DNA of 38,499 nt, from IMG/VR virus record IMGVR_UViG_3300024999_000225, positions 1 to 38,499 of that record. One strand, given 5' to 3'. Position numbers and translations under genes: made by a program. The first letter of the stretch is position 1. Every line of letters starts with the position of its first letter. The DNA is from a virus. Below are positions 8,967-34,161 of this stretch, one piece after another. A model generated the notes under the pieces. It saw only the letters and a list, made by a program, of their open reading frames with translations. It was not told where the DNA came from and did not search any database.

Positions 8967-8995
8967 AAATAAAAGAGTAAGGTTGAACTTACTCT
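8967..8995 (-). terminator. Terminator overlapping the end of the ATPase gene
   Basis: On the minus strand AGAGTAAG (8995-8988) pairs with CTTACTCT (8981-8974) around a six-base loop, followed by TTTTATTTTTT. The stem covers the stop codon of the ATPase gene. Confidence 0.75.
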
Positions 8996-11313
8996 CCCTT
9001 TCTACTCTTAAATCTCTTTTCGGGAGGCAATTGCATCTTGCAAATAAATGGCACAGCATTTTCTCCACCACTTCTAATGATATTTATTGCATGCCAACGT
9101 TTCAATTTCAGGCAATCCTCCAAAGTAAACGGATAAACTTCTTCCTTTAAACTTATCCATGTTAATTTACTCGTAGGATATAGATGATAATGTGGAAGTG
9201 CATTCCTGATTGCTTTTTGTAAATTATTTGGAATTTGTTCCCAGTAATGGAATGTCCAAAAATAACCTATCTTCCACTTACGACTTTCAACCGCAGCAGC
9301 CTCCCATATTGAAGCAGAACGTAAAAACTGATGAGGTTCGTCTAACATGATATAAAAAGGAAATTCTGCATCTGCCCCATATATTTTCTTTCTTAGTCTC
9401 ATAGCAATATCAATCTTAGAACATAGTAAATTAATAATTACATCTATTGCCGATTTATCTAAATCGTCACTAGGTACATCAAATACAATAATTTTCTTTT
9501 GTGACATTAGTTGAACCATATCTAAACTATTATTAGAATTTACACAATTTGCTAAATGAGGGTCTGATAATATCCTATTTAATCTATTGTAAATAGGAGA
9601 TAATATCTTGCCTTTCATACCATCACTCATGCCTTCAAATTCTTTTAAGGTTGCTTTATTTAATCCTTCGTCCATATTATCAATAACTTGTTTAAGATAA
9701 ATTTTATCATTAAATATCTTAATAATTTCTGATACTTTTCCAGTAGTCATTCCAATTATAGATGCTCTTAAAAATCTCTCAGTTTGTCCGGTTGTGTCAT
9801 CACTTACACCAAAGAAATCTATAGCAGTTCCAGCTAATCTGGCCTTTGTACTAGAATCATGCAATGTTTCACACCAATCTAATGAAAATGCTTGTTGACC
9901 TAAATCTATTCTAATAAAATCCTCCTTCTTAACAATTCCTGCCTTAACAGCAAATTCTATTTGGTCTCCAATTTCACGCTTATTAGGGTCAATTGCTAGA
10001 CCTCCATAGCCCTTCAAATATGCCCCTATGAGCCAGTTAGAAACGAGCCCCTTACTCTTACCTTGCCCCATACCTCCGATCCCTACATTCGGCAAACATG
10101 CTTCATCTGGATCATTTACAGGTTGATATACTTTAATAGTTCTGCCCTTGAATGTTGCATCACCTAATTCAATCCCCTTTGATTCATCTAATAATCTATT
10201 GTTTACTTCGACTTCTGCTAATTCAACTCTTTCAATCTCAGGATATTTTTCTTGAAGTTCTCTGCCAGGAATTTGAACAATTTTAGATATTTCTGCCGAT
10301 GACATAATATTAAAATTCAATTTAATTCTTGGTGGTTTATGAGTATTTATAATCCTTAATACTTCATTTGCTTTTTTACCTTTTAATTGACAAGGTGCTA
10401 ACTCATTATCTAAACTTATGTCATGAAAACTACTTGCTATTGTCCTTGCTATTGTATTCGCCCTTGCAGATTCTTCTGATTCGGCGATAACCCAAAGATA
10501 AGTTCTCATAGATGATTTATTTCTTTTCTCTTTTGTAGAATTTGATAAATTTTCAATTGTGTATTTCTGTCCTTCTGGATCGGAAGGTTTTTTAGCATAG
10601 ATATTTTGACTATTTCCATCACTAATTAAATCACTTAAACCAGTAATTGCTTCTCTAATTATTTCAGTCAATCCAATAGCAATTGTAAAAGCAATATTCT
10701 TAAATGATTGATTCCATTTTCTAGGAGCATTTCCACTTCTTAATTTATCCCATGCTTCATCTAATTCGCCTTGCCATGCTAATTGATAGATTGGGTCAAG
10801 ATAACAAAATAATCTTGCTTTTTCATTTTCTCCTATTAATCTTCCTGCTTCAATTAAGGATATAAGTGGAAGGTTGTCCTTTGAATCAGTGTGAAGTGAA
10901 TATAAGTCATGCTTACTGTAAACTAATTCATAAACAACAGACTTATTAGAATCAAATTCTTCTACAATATCCACTTTATCAATTGTAGTCTTGTCCCATA
11001 TAGATGTTAACCTTCTGTAAATAAGAGGGGCAATAGTTTCAGGCACACTGATATAAAATGTTACATTATTTTCTTTGAAGTCGATTTCAAATGATGCTCT
11101 TTCCTGCATCTTGTATCCTCTTGGCAAGATTGCTTTTCTGATTATTCTATCAATTGGAAGTTTAAACTGATCTGCAATAGTTTTAACAAAATCTTCTGTA
11201 CGATAATTTCTAGCAGAAGAATCAGGTTTAATTTTAAATCTTACATATTTAGGGTCAACAATAGTAAACCAATTAATATTTTTGATAGTAGTAATTTTTT
11301 CAGCAAAAATCAT
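8989..11313 (-). CDS. TraG/VirD4- or VirB4-like ATPase
   Basis: This encodes 774 residues from MIFAEKITT. The ATG overlaps the stop of the upstream peptidase gene (ATGA), and AGGAGTGA precedes it; the frame also runs further up, into the peptidase gene. Walker A is GGMGQGKS at residues 413-420, and Walker B is FYIMLDEPHQF with the Asp near residue 658. Between them lies LAIDPNKRE, typical of the FtsK/VirB4/TraG superfamily, followed by an arginine-rich, Trp-rich C-terminal section. The first 400 residues are mixed alpha/beta without predicted membrane spans and are not recognised. Such ATPases power DNA or protein transfer at the membrane. No relaxase is seen in the window. Neighbours (M23 peptidase, small membrane proteins) support a transfer or secretion machine. 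Confidence 0.75.
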   Translation of the reverse strand: MIFAEKITTIKNINWFTIVDPKYVRFKIKPDSSARNYRTEDFVKTIADQFKLPIDRIIRKAILPRGYKMQERASFEIDFKENNVTFYISVPETIAPLIYRRLTSIWDKTTIDKVDIVEEFDSNKSVVYELVYSKHDLYSLHTDSKDNLPLISLIEAGRLIGENEKARLFCYLDPIYQLAWQGELDEAWDKLRSGNAPRKWNQSFKNIAFTIAIGLTEIIREAITGLSDLISDGNSQNIYAKKPSDPEGQKYTIENLSNSTKEKRNKSSMRTYLWVIAESEESARANTIARTIASSFHDISLDNELAPCQLKGKKANEVLRIINTHKPPRIKLNFNIMSSAEISKIVQIPGRELQEKYPEIERVELAEVEVNNRLLDESKGIELGDATFKGRTIKVYQPVNDPDEACLPNVGIGGMGQGKSKGLVSNWLIGAYLKGYGGLAIDPNKREIGDQIEFAVKAGIVKKEDFIRIDLGQQAFSLDWCETLHDSSTKARLAGTAIDFFGVSDDTTGQTERFLRASIIGMTTGKVSEIIKIFNDKIYLKQVIDNMDEGLNKATLKEFEGMSDGMKGKILSPIYNRLNRILSDPHLANCVNSNNSLDMVQLMSQKKIIVFDVPSDDLDKSAIDVIINLLCSKIDIAMRLRKKIYGADAEFPFYIMLDEPHQFLRSASIWEAAAVESRKWKIGYFWTFHYWEQIPNNLQKAIRNALPHYHLYPTSKLTWISLKEEVYPFTLEDCLKLKRWHAINIIRSGGENAVPFICKMQLPPEKRFKSRKGE

Positions 11314-11954
11314 TGTATGATCACTCCTAACATTTTTAATATGATATAAAAGGCAAAAGTCCAATAAACTCCTTTTACAGCTCTTTTAGAACCAAATATT
11401 GCAAGCAATGCAAATATCATAGCAACCAATAGTGCATAATCACTATTTTGCACTATCCAATGAAAAAAATCAGATATAAATGATAAAAACTTATTGAATA
11501 TGCTTTGTTTTCCTTCCTCTAATAAATCTGTACCAGAAGTAGTTAGTATATGCCATGTTTTTTCCCAGAATCCTGTTTCAGTTGCTTTTTGAAAATAATT
11601 ACTCGGATCTTGATATTGACCGTTAGATATTAAGCCAACGTGGATATGTGGGCCTGTTGACCTTCCAGAATTTCCGGTTAATCCTAATGTTTCTCCAACT
11701 CTAACATGTTGACCGTATGTTACATTTACTTGAGATAAATGACCATAAACCAATTCTTTGCCATTATCTAACTTAACTCCAATGCCATTTCCAATAATAT
11801 TATCATGAATTATTCTACTAATGATTCCATCTGTTAAAGATTGGGCTGGAGTAGACATAGGGCTTCCAATATCTACTCCAGAGTGAGGAACCTTGTGAAC
11901 ATTATCAATTGCTCCAAATTTTGCAGTGATAGGATATTGCAAGAATTTAATCAT
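11310..11954 (-). CDS. M23-family peptidase with C-terminal membrane segments
   Basis: This is a 214-residue protein. The metallopeptidase signature is complete: HSGVD (H24, D28), YGH (H72) and GPHIH (H103, H105). The domain has the usual order for M23 lysostaphin/LytM enzymes, which cut cell-wall cross-bridges. No N-terminal signal peptide is present. Instead, two hydrophobic segments (about 172-190 and 196-213) end the protein, so topology is unusual and the catalytic domain may be exported as an N-out domain. The ribosome site is AAAGGAG. It is translationally coupled to the ATPase gene by ATGA overlap and sits 14 bases after the upstream membrane gene. It likely opens peptidoglycan for the transfer apparatus. 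Confidence 0.85.
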   Translation of the reverse strand: MIKFLQYPITAKFGAIDNVHKVPHSGVDIGSPMSTPAQSLTDGIISRIIHDNIIGNGIGVKLDNGKELVYGHLSQVNVTYGQHVRVGETLGLTGNSGRSTGPHIHVGLISNGQYQDPSNYFQKATETGFWEKTWHILTTSGTDLLEEGKQSIFNKFLSFISDFFHWIVQNSDYALLVAMIFALLAIFGSKRAVKGVYWTFAFYIILKMLGVIIQ

Positions 11955-13986: not shown

Positions 13987-14232
13987 TTAAAGCATTATAT
14001 CATCCAAATCATCTTTTTCTACTTTTCTCTCAACTCTTTTTTCTACCAATTTATCTTGTTCAACTACAACATCTTTTATCTCATCATTGCTCAATTGCTT
14101 CTTTATCCACTTGCTAAAATTCTTAATTTCATTTGCTTTTTCATAAAGTAATAATTCATCTTCATCATCTAAATTAAAATAAACACCTTTTCTTTTTACT
14201 CTGCCTGTGAGTTCGCCAACTGACTTGCCCAT
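13987..14232 (-). CDS. ParR-like DNA-binding adaptor
   Basis: This is an 81-residue basic/acidic protein. RKGVYFNLDDEDELLLYEKANEIKNFSKWIKKQL has the strand-helix-helix pattern of ribbon-helix-helix proteins of the ParR type. The C-terminal 35 residues are charged (KLVEKRVERKVEKDDLDDIML), as in adaptors that touch the ParM filament. Its start lies 37 bases inside the end of the ParM gene, so translation is coupled. In type II partition systems ParR binds centromere repeats and loads them on ParM filaments. TACCCCATA repeats on both sides of the operon are its likely sites. Confidence 0.65.
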   Translation of the reverse strand: MGKSVGELTGRVKRKGVYFNLDDEDELLLYEKANEIKNFSKWIKKQLSNDEIKDVVVEQDKLVEKRVERKVEKDDLDDIML

Positions 14233-15047
14233 GCTTTCAGCCCCATTCGATGGTAGCCATTTGTATTGCTAAAAATTGGATTAGTAATTATCTCAACATT
14301 TTTATAAAATTGCTTAAATAAATCACCAAATTTTAAAGCTCCTCCCCCAGTTAATAAAAATTTATCTGAATCTTCGTAGTCCGTAAACTTTTCGCTTAAC
14401 TCTGAGATAATTTTCTGCACATATTGCTTATCGTCAATATAGTTGCCTTTTAATTTAATGCTCCCGAATTGAACAGTTCCACTATCTCTGGTTATAAACT
14501 TAGTTCCTTTTATCGTGGCATAATTTACGGTGAGTGATCCAAGATCAAGAATTCTCTTTTTCCCAATTGCTAAACTTTCATCTTTGTATAAAGCATATTG
14601 GAAAGAAGCAACCGCTTCAGGAACTAATTTAAGATTATTAATACTAAATTTCTTATGTTCTCCATTAATTTGAATATCATAATCACCATATAATAAATCT
14701 TCTAATGCTTTTTTAGTTGTAGTATTAAAATCTACTATAGGAACACCAGTCACGATTAATAAATCAGACTCATTCTCTACAATTGATAATCCTACTGCCG
14801 TAATAAACAATACACGTGTTTGATTGTGTATCTTTGATGCTGTATTCATGGATGTTGGGGCAAAAGATTCATCTTCCGCAAGTTGGCCTACAAAATATTT
14901 CTCTTTGTCATTAATAATGACTTCATACTCTCCTCCATCAGACATCTCTCTGTGATGCCAGTCACCAACTATAGATTTAAAAGATATACCATCTAGTAAC
15001 TTTGTTTCACTACGACCAGTATCTATAGGGATAATCTGAAATGCCAT
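14196..15047 (-). CDS. parM: ParM/StbA-like actin-family segregation ATPase
   Basis: This encodes 283 residues from MAFQIIPID; the ATG follows GGGAGGAATTAAA, and the longer frame upstream lacks a ribosome site. Actin-fold signatures are present in order: phosphate-1 PIDTGRSETKL (residues 7-17), a mid-protein VTGVP, phosphate-2 LDLGSLTVNYATIKG (about 165-180), and adenosine-binding LLTGGGALKFGDLF (about 229-242). The size is a little below R1 ParM (320). It polymerises with ATP to push plasmid copies apart. The gene partner is the ParR-like ORF overlapping its 3' end. A promoter at 15108-15136 carries a TATGGGGTA site in its spacer, implying autorepression. Confidence 0.85.
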   Translation of the reverse strand: MAFQIIPIDTGRSETKLLDGISFKSIVGDWHHREMSDGGEYEVIINDKEKYFVGQLAEDESFAPTSMNTASKIHNQTRVLFITAVGLSIVENESDLLIVTGVPIVDFNTTTKKALEDLLYGDYDIQINGEHKKFSINNLKLVPEAVASFQYALYKDESLAIGKKRILDLGSLTVNYATIKGTKFITRDSGTVQFGSIKLKGNYIDDKQYVQKIISELSEKFTDYEDSDKFLLTGGGALKFGDLFKQFYKNVEIITNPIFSNTNGYHRMGLKAWASQLANSQAE

Positions 15048-15068
15048 TTTAATTCCTCCCTCATATTT

Positions 15069-15136
15069 TACCCCACTATATAGTATGGGGTATTTACCTT
15101 TATTATGATTATACAGCAATACCCCATACTTTACAA
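15069..15136 (-). promoter_or_regulatory. parM promoter with TACCCCATA operators
   Basis: Read on the minus strand: TTGTAA (15136-15131), 17 bases, TATAAT (15113-15108). A copy of TATGGGGTA lies in the spacer (15128-15120). Downstream of the start an inverted pair follows: TACCCCA at 15069-15075 and TATGGGGTA at 15084-15092. Binding here by ParR would block transcription, as in other type II partition loci. Confidence 0.6.
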
Positions 15137-16184: not shown

Positions 16185-16206
16185 CGCTTTTATTATCCGG
16201 CCTAAG

Positions 16207-16305
16207 TTATCAACATGTGTACAATTATCGAAATTAGTAAAACTTACACACAAGGGAAAATATTTCTAAGAACTTATACACAGGCATGTCGATATGTAGT
16301 ATAAT
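16207..16305 (+). promoter_or_regulatory. DnaA-box cluster and candidate rep promoter
   Basis: TTATCAACA (16207-16215), TTACACACA (16244-16252) and TTATACACA (16274-16282) each match the DnaA box TTATNCACA with one or no change. A TATAAT at 16300-16305 could be the -10 of the Rep promoter. The third box lies about where its -35 would be, so DnaA could act on transcription as well as on strand opening. The leader from about 16312 to 16524 is non-coding. Confidence 0.6.
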
Positions 16306-16356
16306 CTTAGGGATAGGAATATTTAGTGAAGAAATTAATTAGATATACACGCATAG

Positions 16357-16459
16357 CAAAACCCTTGATATGTTCGGCAGCCAAACTGTTCACATCAAGG
16401 GTCAGGACAAGGGAAATTCAGTTATACAGGAGCAATAGGTTTCTTTTTGGAAACTCATT
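16357..16459 (-). ncRNA. Predicted antisense RNA opposite the rep leader
   Basis: A minus-strand promoter at 16466-16493 would start an RNA near 16459. About 60 bases on it meets a stem of ACCCTTGAT (16402-16394) with ATCAAGGGT (16369-16361), followed by TTTT, giving a product near 100 bases. It is complementary to the middle of the Rep mRNA leader. The leader also contains a hairpin (CTAGCA with TGCTAG, 16491-16509) just before the rep ribosome site. This is the layout of countertranscribed RNAs that limit copy number in plasmids of Bacillota. Confidence 0.55.
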
Positions 16460-16465
16460 TCCTTT

Positions 16466-16493
16466 ATTATAACATGTATTTTCAGTTTGTCTA
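16466..16493 (-). promoter_or_regulatory. Antisense promoter in the rep leader
   Basis: On the minus strand TAGACA (16493-16488), 16 bases, then TATAAT (16471-16466) preceded by TGT as an extended -10. It is close to consensus and directed away from the rep coding region. Confidence 0.6.
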
Positions 16494-16524
16494 GCATTGC
16501 TACTGCTAGGAAGAGGGAAATATT

Positions 16525-16917
16525 TTGTTTAGATTACCTAAACCTCAGAAAAATTTCATGGAAGTCCCAAATATTGTATTTGATGAATTGATACCTAGAA
16601 TTAGTAATCTATCGGCCCTGAAGTGCTATTTACTCATGCTAAGAAAATGTTGGGGTTTCTCGAAGATAGGTGATTGGATCAGTATATCTCAACTAATTAA
16701 ACTTACTGGATTATCTCGTCAATCTTGTATCTCAGGAATGAAATGGTTAGAAGATAATGGTTTAATATGGTTATCGAAGTCTGGTGTAAATGGGTCTATT
16801 AAGATAATGTATTTTTTGTGTAGTGAAGAGACTGAGGAAATTGAAAATATGGTAAAGGAGGGAATGATAAGTGCAGATAAATTATATGAAATGATGATGG
16901 AAGAAAGGAAATCGTAA
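16525..16917 (+). CDS. Small winged-helix replication protein (phage O/replisome-organiser N-domain type)
   Basis: This is a 130-residue protein starting at TTG (MFRLPKPQ) eight bases after AGGAAGAGGG; no ATG with a ribosome site is near. NFMEVPNIVFDELIPRISNLSALKCYLLMLRKCWGF, then ISISQLIKLTGLSRQSCISGMKWLEDNGLIWL, is the winged-helix pattern of phage replication protein O and replisome-organiser N-terminal domains. The usual C-terminal DnaD-like or helicase-loading domain is missing, so this is either a short initiator or a truncated one. DnaA boxes before and after, four iterons downstream and an antisense RNA over its leader mark it as the plasmid Rep. The rare start codon also keeps expression low. 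Confidence 0.65.
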   Translation: MFRLPKPQKNFMEVPNIVFDELIPRISNLSALKCYLLMLRKCWGFSKIGDWISISQLIKLTGLSRQSCISGMKWLEDNGLIWLSKSGVNGSIKIMYFLCSEETEEIENMVKEGMISADKLYEMMMEERKS

Positions 16918-16927
16918 ATGTCAACCA

Positions 16928-17099
16928 GTCTAAATTCTATACTGGTTTTACCCTACTTATCCACAGAAAACACCAGTCTAAATTCTTGACCCGTCTAAAT
17001 TCTATACCCGACCCGTATAGAATTTAGACCCACAAAAGAAACCTATACAAGTCTTATATATCTTACTATTATTACCAGTAATATGAAAAGTTATCCACA
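16928..17099. repeat. Iterons and DnaA boxes (candidate origin of replication)
   Basis: GTCTAAATTCTATAC is found at 16928-16942 and 16993-17007, as a shortened copy GTCTAAATTCT at 16976-16986, and inverted at 17015-17029. The last two full copies face each other across seven bases, forming a 15-pair perfect hairpin. The first copy lies in an AACCAGT/ACTGGTT stem (16924-16947) followed by TTTT, which could also terminate rep. Perfect DnaA boxes TTATCCACA lie at 16957-16965 and 17091-17099. Together with the boxes upstream of rep, this is the best origin candidate in the window. Confidence 0.7.
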
Positions 17100-17114
17100 G
17101 GGAGGAAAACAAAA

Positions 17115-18153: not shown

Positions 18154-18585
18154 TTAATAACTAAAGTTATTTTGATCAAACATATTTCCTAACAATTCTA
18201 TTACATCATCAAGCGTCTCACAATAATTGCTAATACAACAATTAATATGAGGACTCCAGTGCCTTCCTTGCTCTCCGAATGCAATTACTGGTTTCCCTAA
18301 TTCTTTAAATCTTGTTAATTCAAATATTGTGCCAGGAGAAAAATCTATATCATTTATACATACCACACAAATATCTGATTTATTAATGTAATAATTATTT
18401 TGATCCACAATTACTTTTTCACTATATGTATGATTCATTTCCTTTAAGAAAGTTTTAACAGGATTGAATGTATAGATAAAACAACTTTCTGCCCACGCAT
18501 CTAATTTATCTCTCCATTCACTTGCTTTATGTAATTCATTATTCCTATGGTAGTGAGTCATGCAAGACGCCTCATAAATGTACAT
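18154..18585 (-). CDS. Nucleoside 2-deoxyribosyltransferase-like protein
   Basis: This is a 143-residue protein. MYIYEASCMT starts the Rossmann-like first strand. SDICVVCINDIDFSPGTIFELTRFKELGKPVIAF (about residues 70-103) is the hallmark of the family: the D-x-x-V strand, the acidic D..PGT.FE active-site loop with the catalytic Glu, and GKPVI. Family members move deoxyribose between bases or cleave nucleoside monophosphates, and serve base salvage or DNA modification. It lies one base after the guanylate-kinase-like gene in a nucleotide-metabolism operon. Confidence 0.8.
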   Translation of the reverse strand: MYIYEASCMTHYHRNNELHKASEWRDKLDAWAESCFIYTFNPVKTFLKEMNHTYSEKVIVDQNNYYINKSDICVVCINDIDFSPGTIFELTRFKELGKPVIAFGEQGRHWSPHINCCISNYCETLDDVIELLGNMFDQNNFSY

Positions 18586-18586
18586 T

Positions 18587-19105
18587 TTAACACTCTCCTT
18601 TAATTTTATTTAAAACTTCTTGTAAACAATCATTAACAGCAATATTTTCAACCACATAATCTACTTCTTTATCAATGAATTGAAATAATCCTTGATCTGA
18701 AAATATTCTTCTAAATACTTCCATAAGATTATCACCTCTATCTACCATGCGTTTTAATCTTACACGCTCTGGGACTTTGATATAGAATGATTTAATATGT
18801 AGGTCTTCAATCTTTAATAATTGCCTAAAGCCGTGGGGTTCAACCACACAAATTGAATTATCTAAACAATCTTCATGAGCAATTCCATAATACCATCCAT
18901 TATACATTGTATATTCTGCAAAGAAATTAATTTTTAAATGATATGAAAAATCTTCTTTTGATATATAGTGATAATCTACTCCATCAGTTTCTCCATCTCT
19001 CATTGGTCTTGTTGTATAGCTTACTATTTTTGAATATCCGCAATTAACTAATTGTTTTTCTACTGTTGATTTTCCACTGGCCGATTCACCTATTAAGATA
19101 ATCAT
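18587..19105 (-). CDS. Guanylate-kinase-like nucleoside monophosphate kinase
   Basis: This is a 172-residue protein. The P-loop is GESASGKST at residues 6-14. SYTTRPMRDGETDGVDYHYIS (about 29-49) is the guanylate-kinase GMP-binding region with the conserved R and Y. DFSYHLKINFFAEYTMYNGWYYGI continues as the substrate lid. It is a bit shorter than cellular Gmk (about 205), as in phage dNMP kinases. It would phosphorylate (d)GMP, or another dNMP, with ATP. Its start overlaps the stop of thyX by one base (TAATG), so the two are translated together. Confidence 0.85.
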   Translation of the reverse strand: MIILIGESASGKSTVEKQLVNCGYSKIVSYTTRPMRDGETDGVDYHYISKEDFSYHLKINFFAEYTMYNGWYYGIAHEDCLDNSICVVEPHGFRQLLKIEDLHIKSFYIKVPERVRLKRMVDRGDNLMEVFRRIFSDQGLFQFIDKEVDYVVENIAVNDCLQEVLNKIKGEC

Positions 19106-19860
19106 TATTTATTCAACCTCTCTAATAACATTTTTTTAGTAGGTTTCTTACCACAGCATTTATTCTCTTCTGGACACCATAAAAGGTATTCGCATTGAGG
19201 AACTAATTTATCTTCCAACTGAGGTAACGTTTTTAATACTGCTATTCTCATAAGGCTGGCTAATTGTTTATGAAATTCTTGCGTCCTTGTGCATAGTCGT
19301 TTATGCATGTAATGAATTAATGCTTCTATAGTAAATGCAATAGTATAAGATGTGTTGGTTGCTCTAGGTAAAACATAATTTGAATCTTCTGTAGCTTGTT
19401 TTTCTTTAATGCCTTGTAAAGTCAAGTAATTCTTAATCTTAGTTCTTGAGATATTAATATTTTTCATTATTGTTTCATATTCTTTTTTAGCGTCTTCATT
19501 ATTCATTATAGTTTCAGGAGTTGTATAATCAAAATTATCCATATCAACATATCTAAATGATTTTAGATTTTTGACTATATTATTTGGATTTTCATCATAT
19601 GTATTTTCATTTATTGGGAAATTTCTTACGCCTATTTCATGTCTTAATCCTTGTTCTGCAACCCCCCGATCAACACCCTCAATTTTAAATTTAATATATT
19701 CAGTTCTACTTCCGCTATAATGTTCGTCTTCAAAGCATTTATTACCTACTTTTTCAGCAAACTCAATGGGTGTATCGTAGCACTCACACGCAAATTTCCC
19801 CCATTCTTCAAATACTTTTTCAATTTGTTCAGGGTTTAATAAAGTTACTTTAATTGTCAA
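19105..19860 (-). CDS. ThyX-like flavin-dependent thymidylate synthase with variant motif
   Basis: This is a 251-residue protein with a TTG start after AAAGGAAG. HYSGSRTEYIKFKIEGVDRGVAEQGLRHEIGV matches the ThyX core, but the RHR signature reads RHE. After it, about 18 extra residues (FPINENTYDENPNNIVKN) precede SFRYVDMDNFDYTTPETI, which corresponds to the usual S-x-RYV. LPRATNTSYTIAFTIEALIHYMHKRLCTRTQEFHKQLASLMR is the C-terminal ThyX helix pair that binds FAD and dUMP. It would make dTMP from dUMP with folate and NADPH. The insertion and the R-to-E change could alter substrate, for example toward a modified pyrimidine. Confidence 0.75.
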   Translation of the reverse strand: MTIKVTLLNPEQIEKVFEEWGKFACECYDTPIEFAEKVGNKCFEDEHYSGSRTEYIKFKIEGVDRGVAEQGLRHEIGVRNFPINENTYDENPNNIVKNLKSFRYVDMDNFDYTTPETIMNNEDAKKEYETIMKNINISRTKIKNYLTLQGIKEKQATEDSNYVLPRATNTSYTIAFTIEALIHYMHKRLCTRTQEFHKQLASLMRIAVLKTLPQLEDKLVPQCEYLLWCPEENKCCGKKPTKKMLLERLNK

Positions 19861-19888
19861 TTATATCTTCCTTTCTATTTAAAATATA

Positions 19889-20380
19889 CTAAAACTTAAC
19901 CTTGTCATATTTATACTTCCCTCTATAAATACATCTATCAACATGACCACAAGTTTCACAACTTTTCTCAACAACTAATTTTAATTGATTGTGACATGAC
20001 ACAAAATTCTTCATCGGTTCTAACCCATTAGCTCTAATTTTTACTTCTTCGTCTGATATACCTCCTTGAATTTTTTCATTATCTTGATCTAACAACAATT
20101 GCTGATATACTTCTATTGTTTTCAAATATAAATCCGTGACATCGCCTATTTCTTTGTCATCATCAAATTTTACACGATAATAATCTACGTTTTTCCTTGT
20201 ACTCTTTTTGACAATTGTGCATTCTAATCCTCTGTATTCAAATACTGTTCCTGTATAAATTAGTATTTGATCAGAAACTTCAAACTTAGATTTGCTTTTT
20301 ATGTCACTTATCTCTTTATATTTATCTTCTTTCTTTTTTGCACTAGTTTGTGATAATAATGATTTACTTTTTACTGCCAT
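19889..20380 (-). CDS. Hypothetical protein with Cys cluster
   Basis: This encodes 163 residues from MAVKSKSLL; the ATG lies after GAGGTGAAAAGA, and a GTG three codons earlier is inside the ribosome site. The basic, Ser/Lys-rich N-terminus is followed by a small strand-rich domain (ILIYTGTVFEYRGLECTIVKKSTRKNVDYYRVKFDD) resembling an SH3-like or KOW-like barrel. A C-terminal CHNQLKLVVEKSCETCGHVDRC has several Cys that may bind metal. No family was recognised. A promoter lies upstream at 20434-20462, and a five-codon upstream ORF ends within its leader. Confidence 0.55.
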   Translation of the reverse strand: MAVKSKSLLSQTSAKKKEDKYKEISDIKSKSKFEVSDQILIYTGTVFEYRGLECTIVKKSTRKNVDYYRVKFDDDKEIGDVTDLYLKTIEVYQQLLLDQDNEKIQGGISDEEVKIRANGLEPMKNFVSCHNQLKLVVEKSCETCGHVDRCIYRGKYKYDKVKF

Positions 20381-20394
20381 TCTTTTCACCTCAA

Positions 20395-20412
20395 TTACAA
20401 TTTATTTTTCAT
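20395..20412 (-). CDS. Five-codon upstream ORF
   Basis: ATG AAA AAT AAA TTG TAA follows GAGGAATACAT, a usable ribosome site, and ends 14 bases before the next gene's start. It may tune translation of that gene by ribosome recycling. It could also be chance. Confidence 0.3.
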   Translation of the reverse strand: MKNKL

Positions 20413-20433
20413 ATGTATTCCTCGCCTACAAAC

Positions 20434-20462
20434 ATTATACATTAATCAATAAGAAAAGTAAA
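20434..20462 (-). promoter_or_regulatory. Promoter before the 163-residue protein gene
   Basis: On the minus strand TTTACT (20462-20457), 17 bases, TATAAT (20439-20434). The start point is near 20427. Confidence 0.5.
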
Positions 20463-20480
20463 TAATAATTATTTTTATAT

Positions 20481-20696
20481 TTAATACTGTACAAATCCAA
20501 TTCTATCAACATCATCTGTTCTCATAAATTCTTCAATGTCTTCCTCCTTAGTATCATCAGGAAATGAGCAATATTTATAATTATCACCTACCATATCTGA
20601 CATATTTTGAATATATTTAATTTCTTTTGCATTAAATATTAATAAAATAGGAATATTAGCAGAATCATAAATTACATCACCAATTTTTACCAACAT
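20481..20696 (-). CDS. Hypothetical small acidic protein
   Basis: This is a 71-residue protein with a strong ribosome site (GAGGAGG). A strand-rich start MLVKIGDVIYDSANIPILLIF is followed by an acidic helix (DDTKEEDIEEFMRTDD) and ends GFVQY. No family was recognised. It is not obviously coupled to its neighbours. Confidence 0.6.
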   Translation of the reverse strand: MLVKIGDVIYDSANIPILLIFNAKEIKYIQNMSDMVGDNYKYCSFPDDTKEEDIEEFMRTDDVDRIGFVQY

Positions 20697-20815
20697 TATG
20701 TATTCCTCCTCTAAATTTCCTTCTCTAAGACTTCATAAACTAATTCTTAACACAATTCCACCCTAATAAAATTCTAAACCATTCTATATGCCATTCTGTC
20801 GCTCTCAAATCGTTT

Positions 20816-20995
20816 CTACTTCATCAGGTCTGGTTCATTCAACAAGTCATAAGCAACTTTTATAATTTGCCTAAGAATAACATCGCATTCAGTAAAATCT
20901 TTTCCATCAAAATCTGAGATTAAAAATTCCATCATCCTATCATAGTGTTTTGATTCTAATTTCTTATTTGTAAGTTTTGTTTGAATTTGATTCAT
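20816..20995 (-). CDS. Hypothetical small protein
   Basis: This encodes 59 residues, MNQIQTKLTNKKLESKHYDR.. ending LLNEPDLMK, with AAAGGAG before the ATG. It is mostly helical with charged faces. No family was recognised. It fills the space between the 71-residue ORF and a non-coding gap. Confidence 0.55.
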   Translation of the reverse strand: MNQIQTKLTNKKLESKHYDRMMEFLISDFDGKDFTECDVILRQIIKVAYDLLNEPDLMK

Positions 20996-21000
20996 TTTTA

Positions 21001-21289
21001 ATCATTCTCCTTTTAATTTATCATTTAAATCATCTCTAAGCTCTTCAAAAACACAGACCTAAACAAGTATTCAAGTATCAAATTCTGACTTAACCTTGCT
21101 ATCATTCTGACGATTATGTAATAATACAGTTCTACAACCATTGCTATAAGCGACTTGTAGAGTGTGAAATTTTCAATTGAAATTTTATTCTCTTGATATA
21201 TCTACTTAGATTATCTTATTTCACTTTACCTATGATTAATGAAATAACGAACTATATTCTCACTGATTATTTAATTTTCATCATTTTAA
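21001..21289. other. Non-coding gap in the small-gene block
   Basis: This is about 290 bases without a convincing gene. Close to the next ORF's ribosome site an 18-codon open stretch on the minus strand reads VCVFEELRDDLNDKLKGE with no start codon, perhaps the tail of a decayed gene. A short palindrome TTTCAATTGAAA lies in the middle (about 21171). No promoter is clear. Confidence 0.4.
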
Positions 21290-21496
21290 TTAATCTTCTC
21301 TTTGTACAAAACTAGGTCTATGTTCAAATCTTCTAGAACTATAAGGATCATAACAACTGCATTTTCCACATGGACAATATTTATTTTCTTTTTTATTTAT
21401 GCAGTCTATTCTGCATCCAAAATAATCTTCTTGACTCTTTTTAAGTGTTTTCCAATTGATACAATCTGTACAGGTTACGCGAGTGTTTGAGTCCAT
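21290..21496 (-). CDS. Cys-rich small protein
   Basis: This is a 68-residue protein. CTDC, then CRIDC, then CPCGKCSC gives eight or nine Cys in 50 residues, a likely double metal site of the kind seen in small phage zinc proteins (CTDCINWKTL..). The C-terminus is basic and aromatic (YDPYSSRRFEHRPSF). TAAGGAGTGAA precedes the ATG. Function is unknown. Confidence 0.65.
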   Translation of the reverse strand: MDSNTRVTCTDCINWKTLKKSQEDYFGCRIDCINKKENKYCPCGKCSCYDPYSSRRFEHRPSFVQRED

Positions 21497-21523
21497 TTTG
21501 TTTTCACTCCTTAAATAATTTAT

Positions 21524-21712
21524 TTATTTTACTACTTTTAATTGCAAAGCTACTTGCTCTGCATGACCCATCATTTTGTATTTCTCAATATCAACTACTT
21601 TATAGTTTTTACTTTCATTTTTGATAATTACAGATTCTCCATTTTCATAACCTGAATTTGTAGTATATGCGGTTACTAATTCATCTTTTGAGTTGTAGAG
21701 TAGAATATCCAA
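21524..21712 (-). CDS. Hypothetical small protein (TTG start)
   Basis: This encodes 62 residues starting at TTG (MDILLYNSKDE), with AAAGGAG about ten bases upstream. The strand-rich, mildly basic sequence ends HAEQVALQLKVVK. It looks like a small beta-barrel, but no family was recognised. Confidence 0.55.
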   Translation of the reverse strand: MDILLYNSKDELVTAYTTNSGYENGESVIIKNESKNYKVVDIEKYKMMGHAEQVALQLKVVK

Positions 21713-21741
21713 TTAGTTTTTCTCCTTTAATTTAATTATGA

Positions 21742-21915
21742 TTATGATTCTAATAAACCATTTTCATCTTTAATTTTGCAGGAATAGCAAATATTTTTAC
21801 TGCATTCTGTACGATATGATCTTGATTGTAGTTCATTACATTCATGGCAAGTTAATTTAGATGATTTGATTCCATCTGGGATGATATTTCTGCCTGAGAT
21901 GTATTTGTATTTCAT
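21742..21915 (-). CDS. Small zinc-ribbon protein
   Basis: This is a 57-residue protein (MKYKYISGRNIIPDGIKSSK.., ends KDENGLLES). CHEC and later CSKNICYSC give a four-to-five Cys metal site. AAAAAGGAG precedes the ATG. It resembles the other zinc miniproteins of this block in size and spacing. Confidence 0.55.
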   Translation of the reverse strand: MKYKYISGRNIIPDGIKSSKLTCHECNELQSRSYRTECSKNICYSCKIKDENGLLES

Positions 21916-21964
21916 TTTGATTTCTCCTTTTTAAATTAGAATAGAATAAAATAAAATTTATCTT

Positions 21965-22120
21965 TTAACCAAGCATAATTTCTCTATATTGATCTGAAAA
22001 ATTAACTTGTTCAATTTCTATTGACTTCTCTACTTCTCCGTCAGTAATCCAAATATCATAATCAGTTTTTCCTTGTGAATCAAGTTTTTCTAACTCAATA
22101 ATTAAGTCCCTAAGTTTCAT
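21965..22120 (-). CDS. Hypothetical 51-residue protein
   Basis: It starts MKLRDLIIELEKLDSQGKTD, then YDIWITDGEVEKSIEI, ending YREIMLG. GAAAGGAGTTAAAC precedes the ATG. The pattern of a short helix and then strands with YDIWI is seen in small phage proteins. No family was named. Confidence 0.5.
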   Translation of the reverse strand: MKLRDLIIELEKLDSQGKTDYDIWITDGEVEKSIEIEQVNFSDQYREIMLG

Positions 22121-22165
22121 TTAGTTTAACTCCTTTCTAAAAGCATTCGAAATAGGTTCTTGATG

Positions 22166-22597
22166 CTAGTTTAATCTCATTCCCCAACATTTATATTCTT
22201 TTTTAGGTGATTCATTTCCATTTAATATTACATCAATGTAATTATCATCTAAAATTTCTGTAACAATTCCCATCTTATGATTGTAATAAACTTCATCATC
22301 AACTTTAAAATCAAAATTAGTTAAATAATAATTTAAATAATTAAATCTATCACAAAATTTATTTAATTCATCATATGTAATTATTTCACAACTTCTATTA
22401 AATGAAGCAAAAGAGAAAACAATTGTTGTTTGTGAAAGCTCAAATATAAATTTATCTAACTTACTCTCTGTCTCTTTTTTGATATCAATTATAGTTAAGT
22501 CAAACTTCTTTCTAAAGTTTTCCATTATGGTGAAAATAGAGTCTATTGATCTCATAGCATGATAATCATTATTCATTTCTATAGTTCCATTAAACAT
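22166..22597 (-). CDS. Hypothetical protein
   Basis: This is a 143-residue protein with AGAAAGGAAG before the ATG. The first 95 residues are alpha/beta (IDSIFTIMENFRKKFDLTIIDIKK, then TTIVFSFASF). The C-terminal 45 form a compact strand-rich module, FKVDDEVYYNHKMGIVTEILDDNYIDVILNG, which looks like a KOW/SH3-like barrel. No family was recognised. Confidence 0.6.
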   Translation of the reverse strand: MFNGTIEMNNDYHAMRSIDSIFTIMENFRKKFDLTIIDIKKETESKLDKFIFELSQTTIVFSFASFNRSCEIITYDELNKFCDRFNYLNYYLTNFDFKVDDEVYYNHKMGIVTEILDDNYIDVILNGNESPKKEYKCWGMRLN

Positions 22598-22631
22598 TTA
22601 CATCTTCCTTTCTTAATTTCAATTAAAATCA

Positions 22632-22793
22632 TTAACTTACTGGACTACTCCAAACCATTAAAAATTCAGTTAATAAATCTGTATTTTGTCTAATTTCTAC
22701 AGTTGCTCCACAATTTTTGCATTTAAAAGTATCATTATAACAATTTGTTAAACACCATTCCATATTATGATTTTTGCAATAATTACAAGTCAT
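22632..22793 (-). CDS. Small zinc-ribbon protein
   Basis: This is a 53-residue protein. CNYC near the start and CKNCGATVEI later form a zinc ribbon, with WCLTNC between, giving six Cys in all. A purine-rich AAAAGGAAAGTG sequence lies just before the ATG. It directly follows the larger Cys-rich gene at 22811. Confidence 0.55.
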   Translation of the reverse strand: MTCNYCKNHNMEWCLTNCYNDTFKCKNCGATVEIRQNTDLLTEFLMVWSSPVS

Positions 22794-22810
22794 TTATTCA
22801 CACTTTCCTT

Positions 22811-23503
22811 TTACAAAATAATCCCAACACTATAATCAGCATAGTAACTTGTAGTCCCTTGCCTATTATCTTCACACCATTTATCCAATAATTCTTGAAG
22901 ATCATTTTTATCTTCATCTGAAATATTATCCATTGCATCCTCATGTAAATCACTACAACTATCTTCAATAATATTAGATGCATCCATAGATAAATCAATT
23001 GATTGTGTACCATAAATTCGCAATTCTTCACGACTAATTAATTGGTCATTTTCGTCTTCTTTATCTTCTATCCATTCTTCTAAATCTTCAGTTATAATAT
23101 ATGTATCATAATTATCAATATAAATCATTTTATAATCATTTAATGCTTGTTCATAAGATATTTTCTTTGCTTTATTCCATATTTCTAAATCTTTTACATG
23201 TTGCTCTTGAATACGCTCTAAGTTTGACTGCTTACAATCACATCTATAATTTTGTCTCTCAAGAGTTTCATTGCAATGTAAACATTTATTTTGAACTCCA
23301 TTATAACAATGTCGGCATCCTATAATAGTTTGTTGCTTATATGGGAAATGAATTTTACTATTTTCACCTTTAAGACCAAATGGATTATCGTCTACTTGAA
23401 GTCCTGTGCCTCCACAATGAGAACAGATTACTTCATGTTCTTGTAAGTCTTTTTGAAGTTTTAGATTAAATGATACATCAATTTGTTCAGTTCTTATTGG
23501 CAT
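22811..23503 (-). CDS. Cys-rich protein with DnaJ-like zinc repeats
   Basis: This is a 230-residue protein. CSHCGGTG (about residue 27) is followed by CRHCYNG, CLHCNET and CDC, an array of CxxC pairs with the CxxCxG-like spacing of DnaJ zinc centres. The second half is acidic and helical (LEEWIEDKEDENDQLI.., EDKNDLQELLDKW). It has no J domain, so it is a zinc-binding protein of unknown role, perhaps a chaperone-like or nucleic-acid-binding adaptor. AGAAAGGAAA precedes the ATG. Confidence 0.65.
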   Translation of the reverse strand: MPIRTEQIDVSFNLKLQKDLQEHEVICSHCGGTGLQVDDNPFGLKGENSKIHFPYKQQTIIGCRHCYNGVQNKCLHCNETLERQNYRCDCKQSNLERIQEQHVKDLEIWNKAKKISYEQALNDYKMIYIDNYDTYIITEDLEEWIEDKEDENDQLISREELRIYGTQSIDLSMDASNIIEDSCSDLHEDAMDNISDEDKNDLQELLDKWCEDNRQGTTSYYADYSVGIIL

Positions 23504-23521
23504 TTTATTTTATTTCCTTTC

Positions 23522-23803
23522 TTAATAACCCTTGAAGCATTTCTTCAAAGCTAAAAGTTTTTCATGTTCTATGTCTACATCTTTTATATTAAATCTATTC
23601 TTAATTACATCTAACATTAGAAAAGAATGAGCAAGTTCTTCAGTTAAATCATTTATAGAGAATTTACTACTATTCCTAAGATATTTTGTTAATACTTTTG
23701 TAACTTCGCTCATTTCTTCTATTGTACAATATATCGCATCATTTATATCTCTTTCAGACTCTAATCTATTTTGTAATATTTTTAGTTCCTCTAACTGTTC
23801 CAA
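23522..23803 (-). CDS. MazG-like nucleotide pyrophosphohydrolase-family protein
   Basis: This is a 93-residue protein starting at TTG after AAAGGATG. The helices carry EEMSEVTKVLTKYLR and later LTEELAHSFLMLDVIKNRF, corresponding to the EExxE and ExxD-type metal motifs of the all-alpha MazG/dUTPase superfamily; the second motif is imperfect. Such enzymes hydrolyse (d)NTPs to monophosphates. It fits the surrounding nucleotide-metabolism genes. Confidence 0.65.
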   Translation of the reverse strand: MEQLEELKILQNRLESERDINDAIYCTIEEMSEVTKVLTKYLRNSSKFSINDLTEELAHSFLMLDVIKNRFNIKDVDIEHEKLLALKKCFKGY

Positions 23804-23818
23804 TTTATTTCACATCCT

Positions 23819-24259
23819 TTATAATAAAATCTCATAAACCGAAACATAAAACATATCAACCTTATAATCTGCATAAATTACAGTTCTCTTTTGAAAATAA
23901 ACTTTCATATCACTTTTATCTTTAGGAGTTAACCAATAATATTTTACGTGTTCACTGTATTTAGGGTCATTGATTCTATATTCTTGACCAGTTTTAACTT
24001 TTAAACTTTCTCTGACAACTTGATCTTTATCAAATTCGATAAATGCACCATAATCACCAATAACAATTCGATTATAACCATTTGAAATTAAAGTGCCATT
24101 AATGCTATGTATTTGGAAATTTAAGTCTCCATTTATATTTAATGTAGATGGCAAATTATCTAAGTATTTTTGTCTAACTTCTTCAGATAAAGATGATTTT
24201 AGTTTGCGATATTTATATTTTGCAGATAATTCTTCTTGGAATTGTAATAGATTTTCTAT
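23819..24259 (-). CDS. Hypothetical protein with likely non-canonical start
   Basis: This gene reads 146 residues if it starts at the ATA at 24259, which lies just after AGGAGGAGGGGTGA at normal spacing. The only ATG, GTG or TTG in frame is a TTG at 24154, without a ribosome site. That start would drop about 35 residues (..LLQFQEELSAKYKYRKLKS..) that look coding. The GTG inside the ribosome site is in another frame and soon hits a stop. The body (IHSINGTLISNGYNRIVIGDYGAFIEF..) is strand-rich and unrecognised. A sequencing indel is an alternative. Confidence 0.5.
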   Translation of the reverse strand: MENLLQFQEELSAKYKYRKLKSSLSEEVRQKYLDNLPSTLNINGDLNFQIHSINGTLISNGYNRIVIGDYGAFIEFDKDQVVRESLKVKTGQEYRINDPKYSEHVKYYWLTPKDKSDMKVYFQKRTVIYADYKVDMFYVSVYEILL

Positions 24260-24278
24260 ATGATTTTCACCCCTCCTC

Positions 24279-24479
24279 CTAATTGACTTTTATATTATCT
24301 AAAATATAATCAACCAAATCATAAACAAAATCTTCATCAATTTCTTCAAAATCATCTAATGTCATAGTTCCTACATGGAAAGCAGATTTAGTTCTCATAA
24401 GATTATAAATGTATGTACCATCTGGATAATTAAATCCAAAGTATTGTAATAGTTTTTGTGCCATTTCTTCTTTATCCAT
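24279..24479 (-). CDS. Hypothetical small acidic protein
   Basis: This encodes 66 residues starting MDKEEMAQKLLQYFGF and ending LVDYILDNIKVN, with AAGGAG before the ATG. It is helical and acidic (LDDFEEIDEDFVYD). No family was recognised. It is tightly spaced between neighbours. Confidence 0.55.
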   Translation of the reverse strand: MDKEEMAQKLLQYFGFNYPDGTYIYNLMRTKSAFHVGTMTLDDFEEIDEDFVYDLVDYILDNIKVN

Positions 24480-24492
24480 TATTCAATTCTCC

Positions 24493-24705
24493 TTATATTT
24501 CATCCCGAATGTGTCCTATAAAGTCTTCGATTTGACATTCATCGCATAATTCTATAAATCCATTGGATTGTTCACAAATAGTAATTTCACCACAATTGCA
24601 TTTTATTTTCTTATCACAATTTTCATTTGGATTAATGACTCCATCTTTATTTGGACAATAGAATTTGCAAAATTGCTCTTTTAGTTCTAATAATTTTCTT
24701 TCCAT
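24493..24705 (-). CDS. Small zinc-binding protein
   Basis: This is a 70-residue protein. Cys appears in CKFYC, C.KKIKCNC and CDEC, seven or more in total, so at least one metal site. The end is acidic (QIEDFIGHIRDEI). AAGGAGG precedes the ATG, and the gene starts immediately after the stop of its upstream neighbour. Confidence 0.6.
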   Translation of the reverse strand: MERKLLELKEQFCKFYCPNKDGVINPNENCDKKIKCNCGEITICEQSNGFIELCDECQIEDFIGHIRDEI

Positions 24706-25017
24706 TTAATCCTCCTTAATAAATTCTATAATATCCATCATGGCATATGTTCTGAGTACATCTTTTTCTACGTCCCATACTTCTAATAACCATTGATCTT
24801 CTGTATGGTAATCAGTTCTACCATAATAGATATTTTGAGGAATAATATTTCTGATTGAGATATTGCCTTGCCAGTTTTTATATTTAACTTTAAGTGAATT
24901 ACATGGACTATAATGAGGACATGAATCTTTATGATTTAATTCGCATCCTTCTCCAAAAGGTTCTTCCCAATCAGGTGAATAGCAAACCCCACTGTCAAAA
25001 TGTATACATGGTTTCAT
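24706..25017 (-). CDS. Cys/His-rich hypothetical protein
   Basis: This is a 103-residue protein. CIHFDSGVCY, CELNHKDSCPHYSPC give a Cys/His cluster of the CCCH kind in the first 40 residues, probably one metal site. The rest (WQGNISIRNIIPQNIYYGRTDYHTEDQWLLEVWDVEKD) is strand-rich and resembles small phage proteins with a WLLEVWD motif near residue 78. AAAAGGAG precedes the ATG. Confidence 0.6.
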   Translation of the reverse strand: MKPCIHFDSGVCYSPDWEEPFGEGCELNHKDSCPHYSPCNSLKVKYKNWQGNISIRNIIPQNIYYGRTDYHTEDQWLLEVWDVEKDVLRTYAMMDIIEFIKED

Positions 25018-25042
25018 AATTGTGCCAACTCCTTTTTCACTT

Positions 25043-25228
25043 TTAATCTATTTCCACTTTATCTTTCTCTTTACTATCTTCCGTGTTTTTACTACCACCT
25101 GTACTTAAACCAATCATTGCAGGAATTAACATTGCCCATAAGCAAGTTGGATCTTTGGTAATATAAATTCCTATTGATGTTGCGATTCCAGTCGATAACC
25201 ATGCAATACCATATGCTAAATATAACAT
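25043..25228 (-). CDS. Small membrane protein
   Basis: This encodes 61 residues from MLYLAYGIAW; the ATG lies after AAAGGAGTGAAACAA, and an ATG six codons upstream lacks its own site. Two hydrophobic segments (YGIAWLSTGIATSIGIYI and CLWAMLIPAMIGLS) flank a short TKDPT loop, and the tail is charged (GSKNTEDSKEKDKVEID). No family was recognised; it could be holin-like. Confidence 0.55.
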   Translation of the reverse strand: MLYLAYGIAWLSTGIATSIGIYITKDPTCLWAMLIPAMIGLSTGGSKNTEDSKEKDKVEID

Positions 25229-25252
25229 TTGTTTCACTCCTTTCAAATAAGA

Positions 25253-25480
25253 TTAAACTATAATATCATCGTGTAAATTAAATACATTTTCTCTTAAAAC
25301 TTCTAGTCTTTTAATAATTTCCTTATAATCTGTGTCAAAATTAATAAAGTTAGTTCGTGCATTTACTTCGTTTACATAATCAGGATTTTGAATATAACCT
25401 CCAAGATGCATTATTGATAATTCTATTCTTCTTATTTCATTGAATAATTCTTCTGATATTGTTCTGCTTAATGTTTTCAT
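25253..25480 (-). CDS. Hypothetical small helical protein
   Basis: This is a 75-residue protein, mostly helical, ending VLRENVFNLHDDIIV. GAAGGAG precedes the ATG. It lies six bases before the frame of the membrane-protein gene. No family was recognised. Confidence 0.5.
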   Translation of the reverse strand: MKTLSRTISEELFNEIRRIELSIMHLGGYIQNPDYVNEVNARTNFINFDTDYKEIIKRLEVLRENVFNLHDDIIV

Positions 25481-25622
25481 TTTGTTTATACTCCTTCTTT
25501 TTTAATATCCTTTGAACTACAAGGTTCGAGGGATATTGTGATTTTAAAATCATTGTGAGAGTAGGGTTACAGGGGTGGGATAAAATGTAATTAAGCACTT
25601 TATCCCATATATTTTAAAATTT
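25481..25622. other. Stem-loops in the gap after the Nudix gene
   Basis: GGGATAAA pairs with TTTATCCC across a 12-base loop at about 25577-25605, just past the Nudix stop on the minus strand. AATATCC and GGATATT form another stem (about 25504-25537). No strong T run follows either, so they may be weak terminators or RNA-processing sites. Confidence 0.35.
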
Positions 25623-26225
25623 TTACTTAATAAATTGTTCTACAGCAATTTTACTCCAAGATTCTAATTCTCCTTCAAAATTGAGTAAACTATCTTTAGA
25701 AATCCAATCACCAACCAATGTTTCAGTTTCTTTGACACTGACATCTAATCCGGCGACTTCAACAACATACACAAGGCCCAAATGAACGGAATCAACCTCC
25801 GTATTATTGGAGCAAATCATACCAATAAGATCAATAGATTTAATGCTTGATTTGATACTAATTTCCTCATCTAATTCACGCATCATGCCTGACTTGATAT
25901 AATCATTATCTGTACCATCTACGCGCTCCAGATGCCCTCCTACGCCTAGAGAATACTTTCCTGTGAGTCTTGCATCCCCTTCAAGTCTACGAGTAATAAA
26001 ATAGTTGTCATTACATTTTACTAAACAATAAGGAATGATTTGACGATGTTCAAAGTTTAATTCAGCATCATAGCGAGGAATAAATTTACCTACTGAATTA
26101 AAAATATCACTATATTTATTATCCTTATCTAACTCTACAAATGTACCAAAATCCTTTGTTAGTTCATTGCTTACTACAAATACTTCTACGTCACCATATT
26201 TAGCTTTTAATTGTTCTTTGTTCAT
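25623..26225 (-). CDS. Nudix hydrolase-like protein
   Basis: This is a 200-residue protein. GGHLERVDGTDNDYIKSGMMRELDEEISI (about residues 95-123) is a Nudix box with a stretched first half: GGH-E, a longer loop, then RELDEE with the catalytic Glu pair. The N-terminal domain ends in HRQIIPYCLVKCNDNYFITRR, typical of the strand leading to the Nudix fold, and TRR may contact phosphate. The family hydrolyses nucleoside diphosphates linked to another moiety; the substrate here is unknown. It lies between the ribonucleotide reductase and small genes, in line with nucleotide sanitation. AGAGGAAAATAGAA precedes the ATG. Confidence 0.7.
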   Translation of the reverse strand: MNKEQLKAKYGDVEVFVVSNELTKDFGTFVELDKDNKYSDIFNSVGKFIPRYDAELNFEHRQIIPYCLVKCNDNYFITRRLEGDARLTGKYSLGVGGHLERVDGTDNDYIKSGMMRELDEEISIKSSIKSIDLIGMICSNNTEVDSVHLGLVYVVEVAGLDVSVKETETLVGDWISKDSLLNFEGELESWSKIAVEQFIK

Positions 26226-26273
26226 TTCTATTTTCCTCTTTTCATTTTATTTATTTATTTTTAGATTTATAGA

Positions 26274-34143: not shown

Positions 34144-34161
34144 ATGTGTCACTCCTTTAAT

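Follow-up and report, generated by a model that had tools for sequence, protein, structure and literature searches.

The window, by which we mean the whole stretch of DNA analyzed, is an IMG/VR virus record of 38,499 bases with an AT content of 70.5%. The mobile element that carries the locus, a phage or a plasmid, belongs to the low-GC Bacillota. At positions 16525–16917 (plus strand) lies rep, which has a TTG start and encodes an O-type winged-helix initiator of 130 amino acids, assigned from Pfam, PHROG, an AlphaFold2 model, and comparison with relatives. In every family member read, the origin begins just 3' of the rep stop codon. A reading made earlier from the sequence alone (the sequence-only reading) had described an origin with an unusually short initiator. 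Its coordinates were right and its description fits, but the locus can now be placed more sharply, in the ori-lambda lineage rather than among generic replicons.

Rep matches the Pfam family Phage_rep_O over residues 10–84 (31.1 bits, cut-off 28.7), and relatives use the corresponding codon as their start, whether ATG, GTG, or TTG. These results bear out the small winged-helix Rep with a TTG start that had been called from the letters. The comparison with phage O and DnaD profiles that the sequence-only reading had proposed places Rep with the former: PHROG O-like initiators match at 1.5e-13, and one PHROG DnaD-like profile follows weakly at 7e-5. No RepA_N or DnaD family model in Pfam or NCBIfam matched, and PDB comparison by sequence and by fold returned only generic winged helices. 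The AlphaFold2 model (17 sequences, pLDDT 85.7) consists of a winged helix plus two C-terminal helices, which form a conserved tail (residues 101–130).

The Reps of relatives are 49–85% identical to the window Rep and about 128–134 amino acids long (about 150 in the distant relative L009). The same end point and the conserved tail recur at 15 or more related loci. Many of the more distant O-like proteins from the same search have 230–290 amino acids. The relatives come from viral contigs and from two Bacillota MAGs (L008 and L009); no further members turned up among other genomes from the classes of these two MAGs (394 for L008, 81 for L009), and a DNA search of the locus against 72,556 plasmids gave no match. 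Searching plasmids and phages with Rep by tblastn recovered only partial O N-termini, mostly from Acinetobacter, Pasteurella, and Neisseria. Judged from its profile matches, Rep is only the DNA-binding part of a lambda O-type protein; the earlier view of it as an N-terminal half thus holds, close relatives being equally short. Short O-like proteins of a further group that looks unrelated (125–153 amino acids; L028, L029, L030, L031, L032, L034, L040, L041, and L045) share a motif resembling ILGGLxDYREYED at the C terminus, with a TGTGGATAA box a short way downstream of the gene.

Four iterons follow rep. Iteron 1 (16928–16942, plus strand), iteron 3 (16993–17007, plus strand), and the inverted iteron 4 (17015–17029, minus strand) match GTCTAAATTCTATAC exactly, whereas iteron 2 (16976–16990, plus strand) carries two mismatches, so that three of the four copies originally counted are perfect. 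Each iteron is itself an inverted repeat with 5-base arms and a 5-base center such as GAATT or AATTC; the window type is a GTCTA-N5-TAGAC dyad. Iterons 3 and 4 also form the perfect 15-bp inverted repeat that the sequence-only reading had singled out as a hairpin. The repeat is real, but relatives keep only the dyad inside each iteron and do not keep the iteron 3/4 pairing as a hairpin. We therefore rejected a cruciform signal; on this comparison the hairpin is a by-product of dyad iterons. A small open reading frame that opens with ATGTCAACC at the rep stop codon and extends through iteron 1 is lost in L008 and variable in length, and was taken as chance.

Comparison among the loci shows that the iteron arms vary together with the recognition helix of Rep. 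The helices SRQSC and SKQSV occur with the arm GTCTA, SKPSV and SRPSV with GTAAA, SRPS(I/V)T with CGAAA, ARSSA with GTCCG, and SKNSV with GTGCA. Both a tree (support 95/91) and gene neighborhood place L021 with the CGAAA clade. Its PSV helix and GTAAA arm are like those of L006 and L014 of the other clade, a pairing that is expected if Rep reads the iterons.

DnaA boxes flank rep on both sides, as first proposed. Upstream is a DnaA-like cluster (16207–16282) with one-mismatch sites at 16207 (plus strand), 16216 (minus strand), and 16244 (plus strand) and an exact TTATNCACA at 16274. Downstream, two plus-strand copies of TTATNCACA are perfect: box A (16957–16965), between iterons 1 and 2, and box B (17091–17099), 3' of an AT-rich tract. 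Since one-mismatch sites are common, with 65 sites of at most one mismatch in the window against 73 expected, only the clustering and the conserved positions of the boxes count. Counted from the start of rep, boxes lie near +432 and +567 in all loci of the window's clade (8/8) and near +390 and +514 in most of clade B; the exact pattern was found at none of L009, L019, and L021. The predicted rep promoters of the window, L014, and L008 each overlap a box or lie next to one. Comparison of the loci establishes both these box positions and the recurrence of the antisense unit described below. DnaA is likely to be a helper in the window's clade and no defining part of the family. The sequence-only reading had named loss of iterons and boxes in relatives as evidence that would count against it; both are kept.

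Directly 3' of the last iteron lies a lambda-type element, ACAAAAGAAACCTATACAAG (17032–17051, plus strand), recognized by conservation and a pattern scan; its counterpart in lambda marks the side on which the melting region starts. It is followed by the AT-rich tract (17052–17090), a probable unwinding element on the basis of its sequence and conservation. DnaA boxes have a set polarity relative to DnaA-trios, as at oriC. A DnaA-trio reading of TTACTATTATTA (about 17066–17078) was rejected because this stretch lies 5' of the plus-strand box at 17091, in the wrong orientation. The AT-rich tract near box B shows neither the order nor the polarity of the box-spacer-trio layout described for the DnaA-trio unwinding system (PMC8287927).

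Relatives keep the block ACAAAAGAMACYNNTACAA beside the last iteron. This post-iteron block is the best conserved stretch, at 89% identity to five relatives, compared with 74% for rep and 38% for the leader. Conservation covers rep, the iterons, the post-iteron element, and the DnaA boxes but not the flanks; the conserved non-coding parts of the locus are the element, the iterons, and the boxes. We scanned 2.9 million viral contigs with the block written as the pattern ACACAAAANAMACYNNNACAA, and most of the matches listed were lambda-type origins. O-like genes were detected at these sites with a profile built from the window's Rep family, lambda O, and other O-like proteins. Among the matches listed, such a gene was present at 103 of 120 sites, with the element inside the reading frame in 103/103, although these 103 sites are not independent, because the collection is rich in lambdoid prophages. 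The reversed control pattern gave an O-like gene at none of 104 sites among the matches listed, and a first count of 80 sites each, likewise among the matches listed, had given 69 for the pattern and 0 for its reverse.

In lambda the post-iteron element is at 39119, directly 3' of iteron 4, and when translated it corresponds to TKDTITK, a linker that recurs in distant O-like proteins. Because the element lies outside the gene in the window's family, its conservation there is not due to coding. Being conserved where it is non-coding, the block, as the alignments indicate, acts as DNA, and the TKDTITK peptide would be at least partly its translation. Given the pattern-scan counts, the window origin is by homology a relative of ori-lambda, but one that lies beside, and not within, a gene of which only the DNA-binding domain is left. 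The post-iteron element resembles a 15-base unit in tandem, with ACAAAATACACCTAT twice plus part of a third in L019 and ACAAAAGACACTATT then ACAAAAGA in lambda; the melting region may accordingly hold a repeated recognition unit.

The textbook account of ori-lambda places this origin within the O gene and has it depend on O plus P. Sequence comparison demonstrates that the initiator domain and the origin element of the window are homologous to those of the lambda O-ori-P region (NC_001416, 38.3–40.3 kb). Lambda likewise has four iterons with inner dyad symmetry, the element ACAAAAGAMAC directly 3' of the last iteron and then AT-rich DNA, and, upstream of the initiator and facing away from it, a promoter for a short RNA with a terminator hairpin, the RNA being predicted in the window. 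The dyad symmetry of the lambda iterons is described in PMC6022878, and the pO promoter with its 77-nt OOP RNA at the corresponding place in PMC6022878 and PMC3985674. The two loci differ in that the window initiator has 130 amino acids instead of about 300 and lacks the O C-terminal domain, the window origin is 3' of the gene rather than inside it, no P gene was seen at the window locus, DnaA boxes are built into the window origin, and the window antisense RNA covers the rep leader itself and not cII. By gene layout, the locus therefore lacks the two features that define a canonical O-P replicon (an origin inside the gene; the C-terminal domain plus P). Adjacent to rep, the next open reading frame belongs to no family, is not conserved among relatives, and no P gene was seen. 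A 73-amino-acid open reading frame 3' of the origin was considered as a split-off O C-terminus and rejected, being present in few relatives and without a family. Iteron plasmids of the RK2, P1, F, and pSC101 type also combine iterons, an AT-rich tract, and DnaA boxes at one origin, but their initiators bind iterons as monomers, whereas the window iterons are dyads as in lambda, where the iterons bind O dimers (PMC5043065).

Transcription of rep is predicted to start from TACACA-17-TATAAT (16277–16305, plus strand), whose -35 lies within the DnaA box at 16274–16282; L014 has the same layout. On the minus strand, the promoter TAGACA-16-TGT-TATAAT (16466–16493) scores 11/12 and points into a terminator-like stem. 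The predicted antisense RNA of about 103 nt (16357–16459, minus strand) would start near 16459 and end in the hairpin 16401–16362 (dG -16.8) plus TTTT. The sequence-only reading had called both promoter and stem, and as sequence features they stand: none of 300 dinucleotide shuffles reached the promoter score and none of 60 the hairpin energy. A minus-strand promoter scoring at least 9, on a 12-point scale with an extra point for an extended -10, is present at 15 of 17 loci, where it ends 52–101 bp upstream of rep; no antisense unit was found at the other two, L007 and L009. The chance of the observed score in shuffles was below 0.02 in 14 of these 15 loci and 0.09 in L021. Terminator hairpins follow the promoters, predicting RNAs of about 70–108 nt in the relatives, with energies beyond 60 shuffles in 14/15 loci, though the independent cases are fewer than these counts, as several loci are near-identical. 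In sequence the leader shows no conservation (38%, compared with 74% for rep), but a promoter followed by a terminator is present again in most relatives.

The leader segment 16457–16521 (plus strand) can pair AUUUCCUUU (16457–16465) with GAGGGAAAU (16513–16521), enclosing CTAGCA..TGCTAG (16491–16509), and folds computed with the antisense target either free or blocked predict that it can fold the ribosome site away. Blocking the target lowers predicted ribosome-site accessibility in the window from 0.62 to 0.24, a change that none of 40 shuffles equaled. Accessibility falls in 12 of 14 loci, by more than in 95% of shuffles in 10 of them, and the mean drop is 0.17, compared with -0.03 for shuffles; at every locus except the window and L014, these calculations used an assumed leader start. 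In the clade B leaders, the fold predicted to mask the ribosome site doubles as a terminator-like stem whose end lies at -8. A stem of that kind is described for pT181 (PMC5703833). Rfam returned nothing for the leader region of the window or for six relatives. The antisense RNA probably limits the amount of initiator made, and copy-number control of the window origin, which the sequence-only reading had suggested, is predicted from this arrangement. The likeness to pT181 repC and pSK41 rep lies in an RNA of about 80–100 nt complementary to the rep leader (predicted here) and in the predicted induction of a fold masking the ribosome site, which is terminator-like as well in clade B. Their initiators and origins differ (rolling-circle repC, RepA_N), and we claim no sequence kinship. 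L003, L004, L005, L006, L008, and L012 additionally have a conserved plus-strand terminator, GTTAGTAG..CTACTAAC then a T-run, about 185–225 bases upstream of rep and upstream of the antisense unit. The stretch preceding it is common to these loci and absent from the window, and Rfam gave no match here. The terminator may act as an initial attenuator or may mark where the upstream gene ends.

Near rep is a gene for an actin-like partition protein (14196–15119, minus strand; Pfam ALP_N, PHROG 691). L005 has a PHROG 691 partition protein too, and some relatives have a ParA-family gene. DnaB-like helicases are encoded in 6 of 13 records, two of them over the Pfam cut-off; a weaker one, in L180, matches PHROG 19 at 2.5e-40. 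DnaC-like genes occur in two records. A terminase was found in 3 of 13 records, and a search of 13 records for Phage_portal gave 0. The carrier is probably a partitioned extrachromosomal replicon, a phage or phage-plasmid, of which the records are fragments.

We consider it likely that the locus is the origin of an extrachromosomal low-GC Bacillota element, of ori-lambda stock, at which a short Rep opens the origin and an antisense RNA limits Rep. A Rep dimer would bind each dyad iteron, and the resulting O-some-like complexes would bend the DNA, straining the lambda-type element and the AT-rich tract until they melt. In lambda, O melts the tract adjacent to the iterons (PMC7466680). DnaA at the flanking perfect boxes may aid opening or helicase delivery, standing in for P and for the C-terminal domain of lambda O. 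Either the element's own DnaB-like helicase, of the kind encoded in several relatives, or that of the host would then be loaded; its route could be DnaA with the host pathway, the element's DnaB-like helicase, or the conserved Rep tail. Pairing of the antisense RNA (about 100 nt) with the rep leader would leave the ribosome-binding site folded away, and the DnaA box over the rep promoter may couple Rep synthesis to host DnaA. Lambda-type origins need transcription (PMC5043065), and because a terminator was not seen in the interval from rep to the origin, the antisense RNA could also limit that transcription.

Three other explanations were weighed against this reading. The short protein might be a transcription regulator and the iterons its operators, the true initiator being encoded elsewhere, for example by the 517-amino-acid protein at 3492–5045. 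A fold search does return many winged-helix transcription regulators, and the 517-amino-acid protein weakly matches HTH_36 and an initiator profile. The sequence families that Rep matches are O-like initiators and not regulators, however; the iterons lie downstream of the gene and not at its promoter, and what comes right after them, a lambda-type element and an AT-rich tract, has the features of an origin. We regard a regulator as unlikely. Another possibility, that rep is short because a full-length O gene has decayed and the locus no longer functions, as the 230–350 amino acids of related O proteins might suggest, is very improbable: at least 15 related loci have a common end point and conserved tail, the iterons have kept pace with the recognition helix, and rep, iterons, element, and boxes are conserved where the flanks are not.

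It is also conceivable that the origin is real but DnaA is its main opener, with Rep only an organizer and the antisense RNA incidental or directed at another target, like OOP on cII. The constant positions of the perfect boxes in the window's clade speak for such an origin, and lambda OOP RNA is described as acting on cII with little effect on ori-lambda replication (PMC3985674). Against this, exact boxes are absent from some relatives, the window antisense RNA is wholly within the predicted rep leader, and its predicted effect on the ribosome site exceeds that in shuffles; we give this arrangement a low probability as well.

Returning to the reading that Rep opens an origin of ori-lambda stock, we tentatively raise a more specific proposal, which we hold to be possible but somewhat doubtful. 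The O DNA-binding domain alone may fire a natural lambda-type origin, with DnaA at the boxes within the origin and/or a self-locating DnaB-like helicase replacing the C-terminal recruiter and P, and a pO/OOP-type antisense RNA may control the initiator, perhaps in the older role of that RNA. For a lambda-type origin that lies beside its gene and lacks the C-terminal domain and P, no description was found in the portions of the open-access literature available. With the parts of O separated by nature, which part opens DNA and which recruits helicase can be asked directly. Within the Rep family, recognition helices and iterons come in naturally matched pairs that could serve small regulated replicons in low-GC Bacillota, and the family also allows the role of pO/OOP-type RNA at lambda-type origins to be tested.

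Elsewhere in the window, the plus-strand gene at 3492–5045, whose 517-amino-acid product has the weak HTH_36 and initiator-profile matches, possibly encodes a second initiator or a regulator. A TraG-like ATPase (8989–11954, minus strand) matches PHROG 5156, of unknown function, at 3.6e-167, adjoins an M23 peptidase, and has its closest relatives in Bacillus and Geobacillus phages; clade B has an ATPase and M23 peptidase pair (FtsK-like plus M23) near rep too. A RecD2-like helicase of 1206 amino acids (30532–34152, minus strand) contains an intein with a LAGLIDADG domain, and the regions 18154–28517 and 34162–38238 encode ThyX, a nucleoside deoxyribosyltransferase, a B12-dependent ribonucleotide reductase, and the element's own DNA polymerase III alpha.
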